Below are positions 2,255 through 24,206 of a stretch of 64,000 nucleotides of DNA, in pieces; the stretch's first letter is position 1; the number at the start of each line of letters is the position of its first letter. Under the pieces are notes generated by a model. It did no database searches. It had not been told where the DNA came from and saw only the letters and a program-made list of their open reading frames with translations. The stretch is from contig CAIXWN010000168.1 in assembly GCA_903923135.1 (NCBI GenBank), positions 1 through 64,000 on the forward strand. The letters are read 5' to 3'. Source of the DNA: an uncultured Caulobacteraceae bacterium (GTDB taxonomy: Bacteria > Pseudomonadota > Alphaproteobacteria > Caulobacterales > Caulobacteraceae). Made by a program: the position numbers and the translations under genes.

Positions 2255-4072
2255 ATGCTTGAACGTGTCCTCAAGACCTGGCTGATCCTGGGGGCGGCGC
2301 TTCTGCTGGCGCTTCTGCCTGGCGTGGCCCAGTGGACGTGGTTCCAGCTCCCGGCTCACTTTTTCATCACGCAGGACCTGCCGGTCCTGGCCGGCGTCCT
2401 GGGCGTCGTCGTGGCCCTGCGTGTGCTTCCCCGGATGGCCACGGGCCTCTCGGCGGACGTCGGCGCCCTGGGCGCCCGGCTGTGGCCAGCCGGGCCGCCG
2501 ACCATCCGCCCCGTCTGGATCGTCGCCGGCGCCGCCCTAGGCTGCGGCGTCGTCTGCCTTGCCGGCGCCCACTGGATCGCCGAGGACTACGCCCTGACCA
2601 TGGATGAATTCATGGCGCGGTTCGGGGCGGCCATCGCCGCCCGCGGCCAGCTGGTCGCGCCGCTGGCGGGGCCCTGGCGAGAGTTCGCCGACGCGCTGTC
2701 GCCGCGTTTCCTGTCCCGCGCCGCCGACGGCGCCTGGTGGGCTTCGGGCTATTTTCCTGTCAACGCCGCCCTGCAGGGGCTGGGGATCGCACTGGGCGTG
2801 GGGGGGCTGGTGATTCCCTCGCTCGTGACGATCTCGGTCCTGGCCGTTTTCGGGGTCGGACGCAGGCTATGGCCGGACCGGTCGGACACGGCGCTCGTGG
2901 CGATCCTGCTTCTGGCCACCTCCAGCCAGTTCCTGGTCACCGGCATGACGCCCTATGCGATGACCGCGCACCTGGCGCTCAACATGGTCTGGCTCTGGCT
3001 GTTCCTGCGCGGCGGCTGGCCGGGCCATATCGGCGCCATCGCCGTGGGGGCGGTCGCTGTGGGCCTGCACCAGTTGCTCTTTCATCCGCTGTTCGTAGCG
3101 CCCTTCGTTCTGCAGCTCTGGCTGGAGCGCCGCTGGCGCCTCGCCCTGCTCTACACCGTCGCCTATGGCGTCATCTGCCTGGCCTGGATCGACTACTGGC
3201 CCCTGGCGCTCGCGGCGTCGGGGCTGACCGGACAGGGAGGTGGCCCCGCCGCATCGGCGGCGTCCGGCGCCGCCTCCGGAGCCACGTCGGCGGTCGGCGG
3301 GTTCTTCGGTCACTTTGTGACGCTGATCACCCAGCCGCCGCCCGACAGCCTCGGTCTGATGGCCAAGAACCTCATCCGCTTCGTCACCTGGCAGAACCTG
3401 TTGCTGGCGCCGCTGGTCGTTCTCGGCGCCGCCGCCGCCTTCAGGGCCGCCGGAACGCTCCGGTCGATGATCGTGGGCCTGGGGCTCACCATCGTCGCCA
3501 TGGCCTTGATCCTGCCGGACCAGGGACACGGGTGGGGCTACCGCTATCTGCATGGCCAGCTGGGGGTGGCGTGCCTGCTGGCGGCCTGGACCTGGACGCG
3601 GTTCACCGATGGCCTTGATGCGAGGGGGCGGGCCGGCGCCAGGGTGGCGTTCCTGGCCGTTGGCGCCCTCTCCCTGTTCGGCCTGGCTCCCCTGCGCGCC
3701 TGGCAGTATCACAGCTTTCTTCACCCCTACGCCGCCGCCCAGGCCGAGGTCGATCGCGCGCCGACGCCTTTTGTGCTGGTCGATGACGCCGGGGTCTACT
3801 TCGGCTGTGATCTGGTGCGCAACGATCCCTATCTGCGCAACCGTCCGCTCAAGCTGTGCCTGCGGGTCCTCACCGACGATCAGATCCGGCGGCTCTGCGC
3901 CGGCGGCGCGATCTCGTTTTCAGGCAAGGCCGACGCCGCCAGACATCACATCCGGACGTTCCCCGATCCGGCCGAGCTGGGCGACCACGCCCGTCGGATC
4001 GCCACCCTGCGGTCAATGAGCTGCGGAGCCGGCAAGACGCCGGTCCGCGACGTGGCGGGTGGGCCGATCTGA
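2255..4072 (+). CDS. Polytopic membrane protein, GT-C glycosyltransferase-like (paralog 2)
   Basis: A 605-residue tandem paralog of the preceding gene. The acidic loop is LTMDEF (D117, E118), and it also has LATSSQFLVTGMTPYAM, GLHQLLFHPLF and GHGWGYRYLHG, each with a close counterpart upstream. It differs by a Gly/Ala/Ser-rich insertion around residues 325-350. The ATG lies 24 bases after the previous stop, and no terminator is seen between them, so the GtrA gene and the two paralogs are probably one operon. A duplicated transferase may act on two acceptors or linkages. Function is inferred from topology and context only. Confidence 0.6.
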   Translation: MLERVLKTWLILGAALLLALLPGVAQWTWFQLPAHFFITQDLPVLAGVLGVVVALRVLPRMATGLSADVGALGARLWPAGPPTIRPVWIVAGAALGCGVVCLAGAHWIAEDYALTMDEFMARFGAAIAARGQLVAPLAGPWREFADALSPRFLSRAADGAWWASGYFPVNAALQGLGIALGVGGLVIPSLVTISVLAVFGVGRRLWPDRSDTALVAILLLATSSQFLVTGMTPYAMTAHLALNMVWLWLFLRGGWPGHIGAIAVGAVAVGLHQLLFHPLFVAPFVLQLWLERRWRLALLYTVAYGVICLAWIDYWPLALAASGLTGQGGGPAASAASGAASGATSAVGGFFGHFVTLITQPPPDSLGLMAKNLIRFVTWQNLLLAPLVVLGAAAAFRAAGTLRSMIVGLGLTIVAMALILPDQGHGWGYRYLHGQLGVACLLAAWTWTRFTDGLDARGRAGARVAFLAVGALSLFGLAPLRAWQYHSFLHPYAAAQAEVDRAPTPFVLVDDAGVYFGCDLVRNDPYLRNRPLKLCLRVLTDDQIRRLCAGGAISFSGKADAARHHIRTFPDPAELGDHARRIATLRSMSCGAGKTPVRDVAGGPI

Positions 4073-15145: not shown

Positions 15146-16975
15146 CTATTGGGATCGGGGTTTTCCTGGTTGGTTGGCTGGGCTGACCGGGGCGTAGATC
15201 GCCTCTGGCAGAACGGCGAGGGCCTCGCCGATCCGGCAGGTCGTGTGGCCGTCATCCATCAGGGCGAACGCGGTGACGCCGGTCGGGTCGCGGCCGGAGA
15301 AGGCGCCAATCCACTCATGATCCAGCGCGCCGCCAGCGGGGATCTTTCCGGTTAGGCGTCTCAGGTCCTGGCCACCCAGTCCGTATCCGATGACCTCGCC
15401 CGCCGCGCTGGCCAGGAGAATCCGCGGGTGCGCCTGACGCGACTTCGCCAGCCGGACCCACCCCGTGGCGCGCCAGCCAGGGGTGGGGGTGTCGGCGACG
15501 CGCCGCGTCGCGCCGAATTCGCCGACGCAGCCGCCCGGCGTGACCGTCACATGGGCTCGAAGCGGCGTCCCCAGCCAGGTTGACCAGGCATCAGCGAACA
15601 CCGAGGTCCTGGCCGCCACCAGCAACGGACGTCGGGCCAGAGGCGTGGGAGGGTCGGGGTATGTCACCGCCAGGATCTGACCGTCGGCGACATTGGCGAG
15701 CACCGCCGGAATCACCCAGTTTCGAACCGCGGTGGCTCCGCGGGCGACGGCGACGAACTGGGCCTCACTGGTGACCAGCAGCACCTGAAGCGGCAGGGCC
15801 AGCAGCATGAGGCCCGTCCGCATCCTGGCCGTTGGCTCGCGCCCCGAGGCGCCGAAAAGGACAAGCGTCAGCCAGAAGACGATGACGGGCGTCTGGTAGC
15901 GGCTGGCCAGAGCCTGCCCGGGGCCGAAGTTGACCCGGCCGATCGCGGTGAGCAGCACCATGCCGAAGGCGAACGCGCAGAGGGCGAAGGTGGCGGCGCG
16001 GGCCGGAGGTTGATCGTCGCGCCGCCGCAGCATTCGCCAGCCGCTGAAGGCGAACAGGGCCGCTCCGATGGCGCCCAGTTCGGCGGAAAGGGCCAGTCTG
16101 CGGCCCGGCAGGAGGTCGCCGATCGTCACGCCGACCGGCCCGCCGAGTTCCACGAGGGCGTAGACGCCTATGGCCCCCAGCCGTCCGAACACCGCGAACG
16201 GATCGGAATGATAGGCGGGTGTCCTGTACCCGACCAGATACGAGGCGGCGATCGCCAGAGCGGCGCCCAGGAACAGCAGCTGTTCCGACCGCGGTCGTTT
16301 GAGCTATACCGCCAGGGCGACGGTCATGAAGGGCACGATGATGCCGCTGGCCAAGGTGTAGGTCGCCAGGAATTCAACGGCGATCACCAGGAGGGGGGTG
16401 ATCATCGATCCGGCCCCTCTGGTCAGCAGGGTGAAGGTGATCGCCGCCGCGAGAATGACGCCAAAGAATACGATCTGATAACCCCAGGTAAAATTCTCCC
16501 ACTGTCCCGACCAGAACAGGCACGTGAAAATAAAACCCGCAACCCACAATTCGAAGGGCGATATTATAAGGCGATTTTTTATAAAATTATAATAAATAGT
16601 GGCGGCAAGAGTCAGTTGTAATATTACTGATATGGTGGCGCTCACGGCGCCGTTTTCCTTAGAAATAAAATGGTCTACTATGAAAACGAGCCTTGAAAAC
16701 AACAATCGGTGTTCGTTGTGCTGAGAAAACAGATAGGAAAGAGTGATCTTGCGTCCGGAGATGATATCGTCCCATTGATCCGCGAATGGAATTGGCGACT
16801 GCGACAGAACAACCATCAGCAGCGTTTGCAGCGCCACGTACACGCCGAAGGCGATGGACAGGTAACTCAGCAGTCTCGACGTCGTATCCCCCGCCAGCTG
16901 GCTGGGGGTCAGCGCCGCCTCGCGAGACTCTCGTCTGTCGGCAAGGTCCGGTCGGTCGGGGGCGGGGGGGGTCAT
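15146..16975 (-). pseudogene. GT-C-like polytopic membrane protein interrupted by one in-frame TAG
   Basis: Two same-frame open segments, 16975-16307 (223 residues) and 16303-15146 (385 codons), are separated only by a TAG at 16304-16306. Read through, they make a 609-codon protein with about ten membrane segments. The first segment has PFADQWDDI and FSQHNEHRLLFSR, typical of a loop in GT-C-type proteins. Membrane helices continue directly after the stop, and the C-terminus is a soluble domain of about 170 residues. The 5' half includes AT-rich stretches. It could be a recent nonsense mutation (TGG or CAG to TAG), a readthrough gene, or a sequencing error. It lies convergent to the NeuD gene. 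Confidence 0.75.
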
Positions 16976-17301: not shown

Positions 17302-18228
17302 ATGAGTAAGCGCATATTCCTGCCCGGCGCCGCGGGCCTTGTCGGGCAGAATCTTGTCGCCCGCATCGCCGCCAGCGGCCAGGAGATCGTCGCCGTCGAC
17401 AAGCACCGCGCCAATCTGCAGGTGCTCGGCCGGTTGCATCCCGAAATCACCATCATCGAGGCCGATGTCGCCGAACCCGGGCCGTGGCAGGCCGAGGCGG
17501 CGACCTGCGACTGCGTGGTGATGCTTCAGGCCCAGATCGGCGGCCTCCACCGGCAGGAGTTCGAACGCAACAACGTCACGGCCACCCGGCGCGTGCTCGA
17601 CGCCGTCGGCGCCAGGGCTCCCTATCTGGTCCACGTCAGTTCATCGGTGGTCAATTCGGCGGCCGAGGATTTCTACACAGAGACCAAGGCCGCGCAGGAA
17701 TCGCTGGTCCAGGCCTGTGGCCTCAAACAGGTGATCCTGCGCCCGACCCTGATGTTCGGCTGGTTTGATCGCAAGCACGTCGGCTGGTTGAAACGCTTCA
17801 TGGACCGCACACCCGTGTTCCCGATTCCCGGCAATGGGCGCTACCTGCGTCAGCCGCTCTTCGCCGGCGACTTCGCCGCGATCATCGCCGCGTGCATCGA
17901 ACGCGAACTGACGGGCGCCTACAATATTTCCGGCCAGGAACGGATCGACTACGGCGATCTGATCAGGCTGATCCGGTCGGTGACCGCCAGCCGTACGCCC
18001 ATTGTGCAAATCCCCTACGCCCTCTTCTGGCTCCTGCTGGCGACCTACGCCATCTTCGACAGGAACCCGCCGTTCACGACCCGCCAGCTGGAGGCCCTCG
18101 TCACCCCGGATGTCTTCGAGGTGATCGACTGGCCGACGATCTTCGCCACCCCCGCCACCCCCCTCCGACAGGCGCTGGAGATCACCTTCCTCGACCCCGT
18201 CTATGCCTCCGTCGCGCTGCAGTTCTAG
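17302..18228 (+). CDS. NAD-dependent epimerase/dehydratase family protein
   Basis: A 308-residue extended-SDR protein. The nucleotide site is PGAAGLVGQNL (residues 8-18) and the active site is VHVSSSVVNS followed by YTETK (YxxxK). ILRPTLMFGWFD and LFAGDFAAII are the later family blocks. It likely modifies a nucleotide- or lipid-linked sugar. It is followed with no gap by an FAD oxidoreductase and then a GtrA gene, so it may belong to the same lipid-linked sugar pathway. The exact reaction (epimerase, dehydratase or reductase) is not known. Confidence 0.8.
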   Translation: MSKRIFLPGAAGLVGQNLVARIAASGQEIVAVDKHRANLQVLGRLHPEITIIEADVAEPGPWQAEAATCDCVVMLQAQIGGLHRQEFERNNVTATRRVLDAVGARAPYLVHVSSSVVNSAAEDFYTETKAAQESLVQACGLKQVILRPTLMFGWFDRKHVGWLKRFMDRTPVFPIPGNGRYLRQPLFAGDFAAIIAACIERELTGAYNISGQERIDYGDLIRLIRSVTASRTPIVQIPYALFWLLLATYAIFDRNPPFTTRQLEALVTPDVFEVIDWPTIFATPATPLRQALEITFLDPVYASVALQF

Positions 18229-19527
18229 ATGGCCGCCCCCCGGATCCTCATCATCGGCGCGGGCCCCATGGGGCTGGCCGCGGCGTACTACGCCGCCAGG
18301 GCGGGCTATTCGGTCGAGGTGCTCGAGGCGGGCGACAGGCCGGGCGGAATGGCGGCCCATTTCGATTTCGATGGTCTGTCCCTGGAACGGTTCTATCATT
18401 TCTGCTGCCGCAGCGATGTCGACACCCTGCAACTGATGTCCGATCTGGGCATGACCCGGCCGATGAACTGGGTGGAAACCCGCATGGGCTATTTCGTCGA
18501 TGGCAAGCTCTACCGCTTCGGCGACCCGGTCTCGCTCTTGCTGTTCCCGAAGCTGGGCCCGGTCGAAAAGGTCCGCTACGGGCTGATGGCCTTCTGGTCG
18601 ACCCGTCGATCAGACTGGGCGAAGCTCGACCGGATCAGCGCCCGCGACTGGTTCATCGGGTGGTGCGGGAAGCGGGTCTACGACAAGCTCTGGCGGCCGC
18701 TCTTCCAGCTGAAGTTCTTCGAGCACGCCGACAGGGTGTCCGCCGCCTGGGTCTGGCAACGCATCAAACGCCTCGGCAATTCCCGCAAATCCATCTTCCA
18801 GGAGGAGCTTGGCTATATCGAGGGGGGCACCCAGAGCCTGGTTGACGCCCTGGTCAGGGCCATAGAGGCGCTCGGCGGAACCCTCCGCCTCAACGCCCCG
18901 GCGCGCCACATCCTGGTGGAGGATGACGCGGTCTGCGGCGTCGAAACCGCTGACGGCGACGTGCGGGCGGCGGACATCGTCATCTCGACCGCGCCGCTGC
19001 CCTATGTTCCCGACCTGCTGGCCAGGACGGCGCCCGACCTGGCCGGCGCATACGCCGGCTTCGACAACGTCGGGGTGGTCTGCGTCATCCACAAGCTGAA
19101 GCGCCGGGTGAGCGCGAACTTCTGGGTCAACATCTCCGACCCGGCGATCGAGATCCCCGGCTTCGTTGAGTTCTCCAATCTTCGTCCCACCGGGGATGTC
19201 ATCGTCTATGTGCCCTACTACATGCCCGCCGTTCACCCGAAGTTCGCCTGGACGGACGCGGACCTGGCCGACGAAAGCTTCGCCTATCTCCAGCGGGTCA
19301 ATCCCGCCCTGACCCCGGACGACCGCATCGCCAGTCACGTCGGCCGCCTACGCTACGCCCAGCCGGTCTGCGACGTCGGCTTCGCCGCCAGGATCCCGGA
19401 CCCCAGGACCCCCGTGTCGGGCCTCTATGTCGCCGACACCTCGTTCTACTATCCGGAGGACCGCGGCGTTTCCGAAAGCATCAGGTTCGCCAGGGCTCTT
19501 GTCGCGAACCTGGGAGCCCCGGGATGA
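18229..19527 (+). CDS. FAD-dependent oxidoreductase (amine-oxidase/UDP-galactopyranose-mutase-like fold)
   Basis: A 432-residue flavoprotein. ILIIGAGPMGLAAAYYAARAG is the FAD dinucleotide motif and VEVLEAGDRPGGMAAHF continues it. The C-terminal SGLYVADTSFYYPEDRGVSESI is the second FAD contact block. Such proteins are frequent in polysaccharide loci, often beside an epimerase, but their reaction is poorly defined. UDP-galactopyranose mutase is a distant relative, not a confident call. The start immediately follows the epimerase stop and the end overlaps the GtrA start (ATGA), so this is one operon. Confidence 0.8.
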   Translation: MAAPRILIIGAGPMGLAAAYYAARAGYSVEVLEAGDRPGGMAAHFDFDGLSLERFYHFCCRSDVDTLQLMSDLGMTRPMNWVETRMGYFVDGKLYRFGDPVSLLLFPKLGPVEKVRYGLMAFWSTRRSDWAKLDRISARDWFIGWCGKRVYDKLWRPLFQLKFFEHADRVSAAWVWQRIKRLGNSRKSIFQEELGYIEGGTQSLVDALVRAIEALGGTLRLNAPARHILVEDDAVCGVETADGDVRAADIVISTAPLPYVPDLLARTAPDLAGAYAGFDNVGVVCVIHKLKRRVSANFWVNISDPAIEIPGFVEFSNLRPTGDVIVYVPYYMPAVHPKFAWTDADLADESFAYLQRVNPALTPDDRIASHVGRLRYAQPVCDVGFAARIPDPRTPVSGLYVADTSFYYPEDRGVSESIRFARALVANLGAPG

Positions 19528-19970
19528 CAGGCTTTCTCATCCGGACCTTCCTGACGCCTCAGTTCGGCCGGTTTCTGCTGGTCGGCGGCGTCGCCGCCGG
19601 GCTGCAGTGGACCTCGAGGTTCCTGTTCAGCCTCTACATGCCCTATGCCTGGGCGATCGTCTGCGCCTTCTTCGTGGGACTGTTTTCGGGCTATTGCCTG
19701 AACGCCCTTTTCGTCTTTCGCGGCTCCCGGGGCAGCCGGATCCGGCAGATATCCTACTTTTCCGCGATCAACGTCCTGGCGCTGCCGTTCGTCTGGGGGG
19801 TCTCGATGGTCCTGGGCGCGTGGGCCCTGCCCCGGATCATGCCGCTAGGATTGGCGCAATCCGTCGGCAACGGCGTGGGCATCCTGTCGCCGGTCGCCTT
19901 CAATTTTGTCCTGCACCGCGCCGTCACCTTTCGGAGCGAGCCGCAGGCCGGAGTGTCGACCGATGGCTGA
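19524..19970 (+). CDS. GtrA family membrane protein (second copy)
   Basis: A 148-residue protein with four membrane segments. FGRFLLVGGVAAGLQWTSRF opens the first, CLNALFVF follows the second, and VAFNFVLHRAVTFR is the family C-terminal block. In mycobacteria, the GtrA protein Rv3789 lies beside dprE1 and dprE2 and acts with decaprenyl-phosphoryl-arabinose. Here the copy is one gene from a HAD-UbiA fusion and close to DprE1-like and SDR genes, so it is a candidate flippase for polyprenyl-phosphoryl-pentose. It overlaps both neighbours by a few bases. Confidence 0.8.
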   Translation: MTGFLIRTFLTPQFGRFLLVGGVAAGLQWTSRFLFSLYMPYAWAIVCAFFVGLFSGYCLNALFVFRGSRGSRIRQISYFSAINVLALPFVWGVSMVLGAWALPRIMPLGLAQSVGNGVGILSPVAFNFVLHRAVTFRSEPQAGVSTDG

Positions 19971-20631
19971 TCTCGCCGCCCTCTACAGGTTCCGCTTCAA
20001 GGAAAGCGATCTTCCGCAGAAGAACGCCATCTGGAAAACCCTTTGCGACAATTTCTTCGGCGCGATCGTCGGCAAGACCGACGTCGTGCTCGATCTCGGC
20101 TGCGGCTATGGTGAGTTCATCAACAACATCCACGCCGGCCGGAAGCTGGGTGTCGATCTGAATTCGGATGTCCGAAGGTTCCTGTCTCCGGACGTCGTGT
20201 TCATCGAGGGCCGGGCGGACGCCATCGCCGTCGATCCCGCGTCCGTGGACGTGGTGTTCTCTTCCAATTTCATCGAACATCTCAAGTCCAAGGACGAACT
20301 TGACCTCGTTTTCAGGGAAATCCTGCGGGTTCTGAAGCCGGGCGGTCGCCTGATCCTGCTCGGCCCGAACGTGAAATACCTCGCGAACGCCTATTGGGAT
20401 TTCTATGACCACTATCTGCCGCTCTCCCACCTGTCCCTCGAGGAAGGGCTTTCCATCGCCGGATTTCAGGTGCGCGACGTGATCCCGCGGTTCCTGCCCT
20501 ATACGACCCGTTCCGCTCTTCCCAAGGCGCCCTTTCTGATCGCCGCCTATGTGCGCATGCCCTTCGTCTGGCCGCTGTTCGGCAAGCAGTTCCTGATCCA
20601 GGCGGTCAAGCCGGCCCGCGTCGATGGTTGA
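19963..20631 (+). CDS. Class I SAM-dependent methyltransferase
   Basis: A 222-residue protein. VVLDLGCGYGEFINNI (near residue 40) is motif I, IEGRADAI the acidic loop, and FSSNFIEHLKSKDELD with VLKPGGRLILLGPN the later motifs. The ATG at 19963 overlaps the GtrA stop by eight bases. The gene ends overlapping the HAD-UbiA start by eight bases, so it is tightly embedded in the lipid-linked sugar operon and probably methylates the sugar or its glycan product. The target position is unknown. Confidence 0.82.
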   Translation: MADLAALYRFRFKESDLPQKNAIWKTLCDNFFGAIVGKTDVVLDLGCGYGEFINNIHAGRKLGVDLNSDVRRFLSPDVVFIEGRADAIAVDPASVDVVFSSNFIEHLKSKDELDLVFREILRVLKPGGRLILLGPNVKYLANAYWDFYDHYLPLSHLSLEEGLSIAGFQVRDVIPRFLPYTTRSALPKAPFLIAAYVRMPFVWPLFGKQFLIQAVKPARVDG

Positions 20632-22099
20632 CACCGACCCTGGCCAAGGCCGAACGGCCGACCGAGGCGCCGCTGGCGGCCTTCCGCTGGCCGTGGACAT
20701 GGACGGCACCTTCCTGGTTGGCGATTCGCTCGTCGAACTGTTCGTGGCGGGTGTGTTCCGACGACCGCTGCCGACCCTGGGGGCCCTTGGCCGCCTCGTC
20801 GAGGGCCGCCCGGCGTTCAAGGCCGCGCTCGCCGCCAACATCGACCTGTGCATGGCCGATGCGCCTGTCAGGCGCGACCTTCTGACCTACCTTCAGGATC
20901 AGAAACGGGAGGGCCGCCCGGTCTATCTGGTCAGCGCCGCGGACCAGCGCGTGGTCGACCATGTCGCGGCCGGCGCCGGGATTTTCGACGGCGCCTTCGG
21001 AAGTTCGGCGGGGATCAATCTCAAGGGGATCCGTAAGGCCGACTTTCTCAAGGACCGGTTTCCCGGCGGGTTCGCCTACGCCGGCGACAGTCGCGCCGAC
21101 CTGCCGGTCTGGAGCGAGGCCGCCGGCGTGGTGATCGTGGGCGGCAGCGACGGCGTGGCGGCCCGGGCCCGCGCGCTGGGCCGGCCTGTCGAGGCGGAAT
21201 TTCCGGCCGGTCGACGGACTGTCGCGCTCTGGCTCAGGGCCCTCAGGGCCCATCAGTGGGCCAAGAACATTCTGATCTTCATACCCTTGATCCTCAGCGT
21301 GCACGCCCATTCCCTGCGGCATATCGGGGCGTCCGTCATCGGGTTCGCCGTTCTCAGTCTGGCGGCTTCGGCGACCTATATCCTCAATGATCTTGTCGAT
21401 CTGAACTCCGATCGCCAGCACCGCAGCAAGCGCGCCCGTCCCCTGGCCAGCGGCGCCCTGCCCCTCGGCGCGGCCGCCCTGGCGGTTCCGCTGCTGCTGC
21501 TGCTGTCGTTGCTCGGGGCGGCTGCGCTCAACGCCGGCGTTTTCGTGGCGCTGCTGGGCTATCTGGCCCTGACCCTGTCCTATTCCCTGCGCCTGAAGCG
21601 GACACCGCTGCTGGACGTCATCGTCCTCGCCGGCCTCTACACCATGCGGCTGGTCATGGGCACGATCCTGGCGGGCGTCGAGTTCTCGGCCTGGCTGCTC
21701 ACCTTCGCCGGGTTCTTCTTCTTCGCCATGTCGCTGGCCAAGCGCCATGTGGAGGTGACCGCCGCCAGGGACTGGCCCGCCGATCTGGACCTGCCGGGGC
21801 GCGGCTACAGGCCCGGCGATGCGCCGTTGACCCTGGCGCTGGGTGTCTCGGCCAGTGTCGCGTCGGTGCTGATCGTCGTTCAGTACATGATGGCCGAGGC
21901 CTTTCCCTCGGGAGTCTACGCCCGGCCTGCCTGGCTATGGGCGGCTCCCGTGCTTCTCAGTGTCTGGATCTGCCGGGTGTGGTTCCTGGCCCATCGCGGT
22001 GAGTTGCACGATGACCCCGTCGAGTTTGCGATCAAGGATCCGGCCAGCCTTGGCCTGGGAGCGCTGCTCGCGCTGACCTTCGTCATAGCCCGCCTCTGA
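20624..22099 (+). CDS. HAD phosphatase - UbiA prenyltransferase fusion (polyprenyl-phosphoribose synthase-like)
   Basis: A 491-residue fusion. Residues 20-200 are a HAD domain with nucleophile motif VDMDGT (D25, D27) and the late FAYAGDSRADL block. From about residue 205 to the end is a multi-helix UbiA domain with RAHQWAKN, NDLVDLNSD and the basic KRARPLASG. In mycobacteria, Rv3806c (UbiA family) joins decaprenyl phosphate to PRPP, and a separate protein removes the 5-phosphate. Here both steps could be in one chain. Rhizobial nodulation enzymes for arabinosylation use related proteins. The function is inferred from the neighbouring DprE1-like gene. Confidence 0.8.
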   Translation: MVDTDPGQGRTADRGAAGGLPLAVDMDGTFLVGDSLVELFVAGVFRRPLPTLGALGRLVEGRPAFKAALAANIDLCMADAPVRRDLLTYLQDQKREGRPVYLVSAADQRVVDHVAAGAGIFDGAFGSSAGINLKGIRKADFLKDRFPGGFAYAGDSRADLPVWSEAAGVVIVGGSDGVAARARALGRPVEAEFPAGRRTVALWLRALRAHQWAKNILIFIPLILSVHAHSLRHIGASVIGFAVLSLAASATYILNDLVDLNSDRQHRSKRARPLASGALPLGAAALAVPLLLLLSLLGAAALNAGVFVALLGYLALTLSYSLRLKRTPLLDVIVLAGLYTMRLVMGTILAGVEFSAWLLTFAGFFFFAMSLAKRHVEVTAARDWPADLDLPGRGYRPGDAPLTLALGVSASVASVLIVVQYMMAEAFPSGVYARPAWLWAAPVLLSVWICRVWFLAHRGELHDDPVEFAIKDPASLGLGALLALTFVIARL

Positions 22100-23443
22100 A
22101 TGGCTCCCCGCGGCTACCATGTCGCCAGAGGGCTGCGGCCCTGGGGGCGGGTCCAGACCGGCGATCAGCTGGTCGCCCGGCCGCGGTTCGTCGACGAGAT
22201 CGCGACCCTGGTTCACGCCAGCCGCGCCGGCGGCCTGACGAGCCTGTGCACGGGTCTGGGCCGATCCTACGGCGACAGCGCGCTCAACCAGGGGCAGACC
22301 GTCATCGACATGTCGCGGCTCGATCGCGTGCTCGCCTTCGACGCCGTCAACGGCGTCCTCCGCGCCGAGGCGGGCCTCGGCCTGAGCGACGTGATCACGC
22401 GGATCGTCCCCCACGGCTGGTTCCTGCCGACGACGCCGGGCACGCGGTTTGTCACCCTGGGCGGAGCCGTGGCCAACGACGTGCATGGCAAGAACCACGG
22501 GCGAGCGGGAACCTTCGGCGCATCCGTGCGCCGGATCGGCCTCTGGAGATCGGATCGGGGCGAGGTGGAGATATCCCCGGACCTCACGCCAGAGTTGTTC
22601 TGCGCGACCGTTGGCGGCCTCGGCCTGACCGGCGCCATTCTCTGGGTGGAAATCCAGCTGGCCAGGATCGGAAGTTCGCGGCTGGACGTGGAGACCATCC
22701 CGTTCGGAAATCTGGATCAGTTCCTTCAGATCGCCCTGGAGAGCGAGGCCGGCCATGAGCACACCGTCGCCTGGGTGGATTGCTCGAGCCGCGGGCCGGG
22801 CTTCGGACGCGGGGTGTTCACGCGGGCCAACTGGCGCGACGATGGACCCCTGACGGTGCACACGGACCGCCGCCGCCTCACCCTCCCGGTTGACCTGCCC
22901 GGTTTCGCCTTGAACGGGCTTTCGCTGGCCGCTCTGAACGCCCTTATCCATGCGCGCCAGACCACCAGGCCGCGGCGGGAGATCTGCCACTACGCCCAGG
23001 CCTTCTATCCCCTGGACGCGATCGGCGCGTGGAACCGCCTGTACGGGCCCCGCGGATTCTTTCAGTTTCAGTGTGTTACGCCCCTCGGGGCGGGCATGCA
23101 GCCGGTGGCGGACCTTCTCGCCGCAATTTCGGCGGTAGGGCAGGGGTCCTTTCTGGTCGTCCTCAAGACGTTCGGCGAACGGGCCTCGCCCGGTCTGCTG
23201 TCCTTTCCCCGGCGTGGGGTGACCCTGGCGATCGACGTCGCCAACCGCGGCGAGCGGACGCTGGCCCTGCTGTCCCGGCTGGACCGGATCGTCATGGCCG
23301 CCGGTGGGCGTCTCTACCCGGCCAAGGATGGCCGCATGCCGCCGGCGATGTTCCGGGCCGGCTACCCTGAGCTTCCCCGCTTCATCGGCCAGATCGATCC
23401 GGCCTTCTCCTCAAGCTTCTGGCGGCGGATGTGTCATGACTGA
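22100..23443 (+). CDS. FAD-binding oxidoreductase, DprE1-like (decaprenylphosphoryl-ribose 2'-oxidase type)
   Basis: A 447-residue VAO-family flavoprotein. GLGRSYGDSALNQG (residues 52-65), TTPGTRFVTLGGAVANDVHG and VHGKNHGRAGTFG (residues 128-140) match the DprE1 signature, including the His of the VHGKNH motif at the family position. WVDCSSRG and GVFTRANW follow. DprE1 oxidises the 2'-OH of polyprenyl-phosphoryl-ribose to a keto intermediate. The start abuts the HAD-UbiA stop, and the stop overlaps the SDR start. Together the three encode the complete logic of a ribose to arabinose epimerisation on a lipid carrier. Confidence 0.85.
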   Translation: MAPRGYHVARGLRPWGRVQTGDQLVARPRFVDEIATLVHASRAGGLTSLCTGLGRSYGDSALNQGQTVIDMSRLDRVLAFDAVNGVLRAEAGLGLSDVITRIVPHGWFLPTTPGTRFVTLGGAVANDVHGKNHGRAGTFGASVRRIGLWRSDRGEVEISPDLTPELFCATVGGLGLTGAILWVEIQLARIGSSRLDVETIPFGNLDQFLQIALESEAGHEHTVAWVDCSSRGPGFGRGVFTRANWRDDGPLTVHTDRRRLTLPVDLPGFALNGLSLAALNALIHARQTTRPRREICHYAQAFYPLDAIGAWNRLYGPRGFFQFQCVTPLGAGMQPVADLLAAISAVGQGSFLVVLKTFGERASPGLLSFPRRGVTLAIDVANRGERTLALLSRLDRIVMAAGGRLYPAKDGRMPPAMFRAGYPELPRFIGQIDPAFSSSFWRRMCHD

Positions 23444-24206
23444 ACCCAAACCTTCCGAGCGCGTCTGCATTCTGGGCGCAGGCTCGGCGATGGCCGAACA
23501 CACCGCGCGTCTCCTGGCGGCCCGCGGCGCCCGCCTGGCCCTGGTGGCGCGCAACTCGACCCGCCTGCGCTCCATCGCCGCCGATCTCTCCGCCCGCGGG
23601 GCCGGCGCGGTGGTGGAGCGGTGCGTGGATTTCGCCGACCTGAACGATCCCGACGCGCTGCTGGACTCGGTCTCCCTGGCGTTGGGCGGGCTCGATGCGG
23701 TGTTGATCTTCTACGGCGATCTGGGCGACCAGACGGTCGCGGAATCCGATACGGCGGAAGCAGCCCGCCTGCTGAACGTCAACTTCCTCAGCGCCGCGAC
23801 CCTCTCGCTCGCCGCCGCCGCCCGGCTCGAGGCCAGCGACTTCCCGCGTCCCGTGCTTCTCTGCATCGGAAGCGTGGCGGGCGATCGCGGACGGGCTTCG
23901 AATTTCATCTACGGCGCGGCCAAGGGCGGGCTGGCGGTCCTGTACCAGGGGTTGCAGCACCGTTTCGCCCTGAAGCGTCTCGCCGTGAGGGCGGTGGTGA
24001 TCAAGGCCGGTTTCGTCGACACGCCGATGACCGCTGCCTTCGCCAAGGGCGGGCCGCTCTGGGCCAGGCCGGAGGCGGTTGCCCGAACCATCGTCGCGGC
24101 CATGGAAAAGGGCGGTCCGGTGATCTATGCGCCCTGGTTCTGGCGCTGGATCATGCTGATCATCCGGCTCCTGCCGCAGTCGCTCATGAACCGGCTCAAC
24201 CTCTGA
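23436..24206 (+). CDS. Short-chain dehydrogenase (DprE2-role candidate)
   Basis: A 256-residue classical SDR. CILGAGSAMAEHTARLL is the nucleotide site, GSVAGDRGRASN carries the catalytic Ser region and YGAAK the Tyr/Lys pair. The long frame upstream is inside the DprE1-like gene; the ATG at 23436 overlaps its stop by eight bases, with the usual glycine-rich start directly after. In the DprE1/DprE2 scheme the SDR reduces the 2'-keto sugar to arabinose. Sequence alone shows only an SDR; the specific role rests on its position. The C-terminal residues are hydrophobic and may touch the membrane. Confidence 0.75.
   Translation: MTEPKPSERVCILGAGSAMAEHTARLLAARGARLALVARNSTRLRSIAADLSARGAGAVVERCVDFADLNDPDALLDSVSLALGGLDAVLIFYGDLGDQTVAESDTAEAARLLNVNFLSAATLSLAAAARLEASDFPRPVLLCIGSVAGDRGRASNFIYGAAKGGLAVLYQGLQHRFALKRLAVRAVVIKAGFVDTPMTAAFAKGGPLWARPEAVARTIVAAMEKGGPVIYAPWFWRWIMLIIRLLPQSLMNRLNL

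Follow-up and report, generated by a model that had tools for sequence, protein, structure and literature searches.

Does the in-frame TAG at positions 16304-16306 of this 64,000-nucleotide stretch of Caulobacteraceae DNA (the window) interrupt a single gene, and if so, has the bacterium lost a step in the decoration of its surface with sugar? The window lies on contig C168 of a 279-contig draft genome (4.64 Mb, 98% complete, 2% contamination). The initial annotation described one stop in an otherwise open 609-codon frame of a GT-C-like gene, with both halves in phase and no other lesion, and this interrupted frame was confirmed. The minus-strand frame 16975-15146 comprises 223 codons (16307-16975), the TAG as codon 224, a further 385 codons (15149-16303) and a terminal TAG (15146-15148), and no second internal stop and no frameshift were found across the 609 codons. 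Codon-usage scoring, trained on 11 neighboring genes, gave 0.30 before the TAG and 0.36 after it, and the five other frames scored negative. Homologs align in one frame across the stop, as exemplified by locus L005, which matches residues 52-530 with 28% identity (E 1e-26). Because coding signal is present on both sides and homologs span the TAG in one frame, 15146-16975 is one interrupted gene, and two chance frames are excluded. A scan of the whole contig (89,950 bases) detected 12 stops flanked on both sides by coding-like sequence; at least one of them (18226) is a plain boundary between two Pfam-backed genes, and, among those examined, only 16304 was placed inside a gene by homology. As a separate observation, codons 51-150 of the interrupted gene (window about 16525-16825) have a GC3 of 0.40-0.58, compared with 0.76-0.90 in codons 151-600, and are possibly a mosaic segment.

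We next consider whether the TAG is carried by the organism or only by the consensus sequence. If the gene were intact in the organism and the TAG a miscalled or minority-strain base, the rest of the frame would be expected to be intact, as it is, and a draft genome in 279 contigs with 2% contamination leaves room for such an error. Against this, a chance single-base error that creates a stop is rare a priori, and 16304-16306 lies outside any homopolymer or repeat. We consider a consensus or assembly error unlikely, and rank it next after a recent loss-of-function allele. Tandem-repeat and inverted-repeat searches found neither a simple repeat nor a switchable inverted repeat at 16304-16306, which leaves classical phase variation, an option raised in the initial annotation, unsupported.

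The same annotation had raised readthrough, in which an amino acid would be inserted at the TAG often enough to be useful, yielding a full-length enzyme. Although the frame past the TAG is well preserved, the host genome encodes release factor 1 (above the cut-off), and the epimerase gene adjoining the interrupted gene (17302-18228, plus strand) itself ends in TAG. Among the 40 tRNAs found and typed in the host, an incomplete set that lacks some ordinary tRNAs, such as tRNA-Ile, and could miss a suppressor in the absent sequence, none has the anticodon CTA, TTA or TCA. Alignment and hydropathy put codon 224 in a variable column close to where a hydrophobic segment ends, and none of the intact relatives has a stop codon at that position. 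Because of the release factor, the typed tRNAs, the TAG-ending epimerase and the variable column, readthrough is disfavored, and we regard it as highly improbable. A naturally split gene, whose two half-polypeptides assemble after re-initiation of the second, is scarcely credible either. A GTG at 16192 does open a 348-aa ORF in the second half, but it lies 37 codons past the TAG, so that the second product would be without residues 224-261, and none of the 14 intact relatives is split at that point.

What the gene encodes was addressed through its family. The read-through protein has no Pfam or NCBIfam match at E up to 0.01, and neither have the 15 aligned family members, one GtrA domain excepted; matches of the downstream half to ThiP, DUF6796 and DUF7268 were weak, fell under the curated Pfam and NCBIfam cut-offs and were rejected. 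The family profile (A1, which includes the window's own row and therefore inflates own-sequence scores) matched no PDB chain at E up to 10, and a separate PDB sequence search returned a single match, to a disulphide isomerase (E 0.56), and no GT-C chain. The phage records searched contained no match to the gene. Hydropathy of the read-through protein indicates many membrane helices. GT-C folds have 7-13 membrane helices and a loop domain after helix 1, and the pilin arabinosyltransferase TfpW is a GT-C enzyme that uses a lipid donor, as is proposed here, the likeness being one of description. Gene context and conserved residues speak for a GT-C-like surface-sugar transferase, whereas the fold itself stays a prediction, given a single-sequence AlphaFold model that was unusable (pLDDT 38.9) and no GT-C chain from the PDB. 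The gene product probably adds a five-carbon sugar to a cell-surface polysaccharide.

Seven residues are invariant in the 15-row alignment (H89, N161, Q167, F335, R347, R359 and Y360), and D66 is nearly so. The open part 5′ of the stop contains the first membrane helices with D66, H89, N161 and Q167. The remaining helices, the C-terminal domain and four of the seven invariant residues (F335, R347, R359 and Y360) fall after codon 224. In the characterized GT136 enzyme, R349A abolishes activity and Y350A nearly abolishes it (PMC11127046). Mapped by eye, D66, H89, R359 and Y360 would stand opposite GT136 D31, H106, R349 and Y350, and we infer that R359-Y360 is the counterpart of the GT136 Arg-Tyr pair. 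The 223-aa product would lack the invariant R347, R359 and Y360 and is therefore expected to be inactive, and the correspondence with the Arg-Tyr pair, if right, would lead to the same expectation. The genome contains just this one copy of the gene, a profile search at E up to 10 having found no second full-length family member.

Divergent from the interrupted gene runs a plus-strand cassette. It begins with the NAD-dependent epimerase and continues with an amine-oxidase-like flavoprotein (18229-19527), a GtrA/DPMS membrane protein that is the presumed flippase (19524-19970; Pfam E 5.1e-15), a methyltransferase between the GtrA and UbiA genes (19906-20631), and a HAD-UbiA fusion (20624-22099) predicted to be a polyprenyl-phosphate phosphoribose synthase and phosphatase (UbiA E 2.1e-22; HAD E 1.6e-5, with a score just under the Pfam cut-off). 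Two genes in tandem complete it, a FAD-binding oxidoreductase (22100-23443; FAD_binding_4) and a short-chain dehydrogenase (23304-24206; adh_short) whose true start is probably further in; their likeness to DprE1 and DprE2 is one of Pfam domain and gene order alone. Judged by these domains, the cassette would be the set expected for synthesis and export of a polyprenyl-phosphate-linked pentofuranose. The DprE1-like and short-chain dehydrogenase genes make arabinofuranose the most likely sugar, the DprE1/E2 pair being the arabinofuranose marker of the published pathway (PMC11127046). The opposite flank is a surface-polysaccharide locus, with genes for a polysaccharide flippase, a family-2 glycosyltransferase, an aminotransferase and a hexapeptide acetyltransferase-like protein. 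The pair of epimerase and amine-oxidase-like flavoprotein (17302-19527) accompanies the lipid-pentose cassette in several genomes, and the known pathway does not account for its role.

The locus resembles the three-component pentofuranose/GT136 system of Citrobacter youngae O1/O2 (PMC11127046). Shared features are a UbiA-type polyprenyl-phosphoribose synthase with a HAD phosphatase domain, epimerizing enzymes and a large polytopic transferase whose C-terminal domain lies outside the membrane, and a conserved His with a later Arg-Tyr pair may be another. By contrast, the presumed flippase is GtrA here and MATE there, the amine-oxidase-like flavoprotein is extra here, and the transferase copy is broken here. 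The synthase with its HAD domain and a flippase in the cluster (GtrA/DPMS) are present, and a functional GT-C transferase is missing in this assembly; another transferase family could serve in its place. The gene kinds and the likely donor also recall the mycobacterial DPA pathway (Rv3806c, DprE1/DprE2, Rv3789 and Emb/Aft) as given in PMC11127046, whereas the transferase profile matches no solved chain, Emb and Aft included. With Gtr O-antigen glucosylation (GtrA, GtrB and a Gtr-type transferase), which PMC11127046 also mentions, the family shares the GtrA partner. Two relatives stand beside a family-2 glycosyltransferase and GtrA: in G052, the transferase is fused to GtrA, and in A. lipoferum it occurs with a glycosyltransferase and GtrA. 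In contrast to Gtr systems, the window's cassette (17302-24206) has UbiA and DprE-type genes instead of GtrB. A family that no Pfam or NCBIfam model covers is placed here beside a lipid-linked pentofuranose pathway, within a system of a known kind, and a single stop in such a gene is an ordinary event.

Of the three options in the initial annotation, loss of a surface-sugar step accounts best for one stop, invariant residues beyond it and a sole copy, and a recent nonsense loss of the final pentofuranose transfer step is, in our judgment, the probable explanation. The gene would encode a periplasm-facing GT-C-like transferase that takes pentofuranose from a polyprenyl-phosphate carrier and adds it to surface polysaccharide. 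One nonsense change, at codon 224, would halt translation once about six membrane helices have been made, leaving a product that retains the first-loop acidic residue and H89 and is without R347, R359 and Y360. The final sugar-adding step would then be switched off with the donor-making genes still in place. The loss appears recent because nothing else in the 609 codons is damaged. In favor of this explanation, the core is read in a single unbroken frame at 14 homologous loci, and the gene adjoins the cassette not only in its own genome but also on plasmids of Rhodobacteraceae SC52, Rhizobium tumorigenes and R. rhododendri, where it directly follows it; the intact SC52 gene lies at CP049031.1:250655-252391. 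Against this explanation, some relatives lie outside such a cassette: none was seen near the transferase in G760, G761, G293 and G331, as judged from ORF lists in which not every neighbor was Pfam-scanned.

The family is patchy in its distribution. Counting the host's own genome, the gene occurs in 6 of 385 genomes of its class and in 9 of 390 genomes of its family, four of these nine by the C-terminal domain only, and four plasmid records carry it. Comparison with sister strains, proposed initially as a check, found no copy to compare, since the 15 other same-genus genomes all lack the gene. Elsewhere, the gene directly follows an amine-oxidase-like gene (G698 and G677) or an amine-oxidase-like gene and GtrA (G436), and in G408 an amine-oxidase-like gene lies within the same 16-kb stretch as the transferase. 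The C-terminal domain also occurs without the membrane part at L066-L069 (G686, G714, G781 and G704; frames of 182-512 aa) and, in the host's own genome, at C33:7205-7501 within a 1525-aa frame. Family copies form tandem arrays of two or three at L087 (G408) and L006/L011 (G331). G331 (L006) was rejected as a second TAG-containing relative, its TAG being where the first copy of a tandem pair normally ends. The stops in G714 and G704 were also discounted, because frames with only the C-terminal domain end there, and L003 was a chance match whose matched stretch falls where other genes are coded.

A frame check against the family profile took in 21 loci, after overlapping duplicates (L001, L002, L005, L008-L010, L012-L015, L062-L065, L070 and L096) were left out. 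Nineteen loci carried the transferase core, in one frame in 14 and not in five, the host's own included; without the latter, 4 of 18 are broken or incomplete. The sequence that interrupts the G677 copy has 88-90% identical counterparts in two other contigs, and that interrupting one G180 copy matches five other places at 100% over about 100 bases. The other G180 copy, next to an IS630-like HTH gene, has a frame change and is missing its front part, and the third G408 copy has a frame change and lacks its middle. Profile positions 211-227 (of 581) contain three of the breaks, a clustering noticed afterwards that may be chance. Loss of the transfer step may thus be recurrent across the family, which points to the transferase as the weak spot of the lipid-linked pentofuranose system. 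A special case of nonsense loss would be a reversible or selected one, in which phage or immune pressure causes the step to be lost and regained again and again, with the TAG as one such off state. The four broken or incomplete loci, two of them cut by multi-copy repeats, speak for it; the missing switching device at 16304-16306 and the origin of the G677, G180 and G408 breaks in draft genomes speak against it, and we hold it to be doubtful. Equally tentative is the broader proposal that the cassette is kept while stops, mobile elements and deletions repeatedly break the transferase, three times within one short stretch; if true, selection such as phage attack would be what turns off the sugar decoration of the surface.

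In G003, of the same genus, the epimerase, flavoprotein, GtrA and UbiA genes lie on a 4.7-kb contig whose matched 2.2-kb part is 76% identical at the DNA level, and no transferase of the GT-C-like family was found in that genome. Because G003 has the cassette genes and no family transferase, it appears that donor genes can stand without one, or that another transferase serves. Near the start of the window, two tandem plus-strand ORFs (452-2230 and 2255-4072; 592 and 605 aa) are polytopic and have long motifs in common. Neither has a Pfam match; they resemble another GT-C-type pair and could also use lipid-linked donors.
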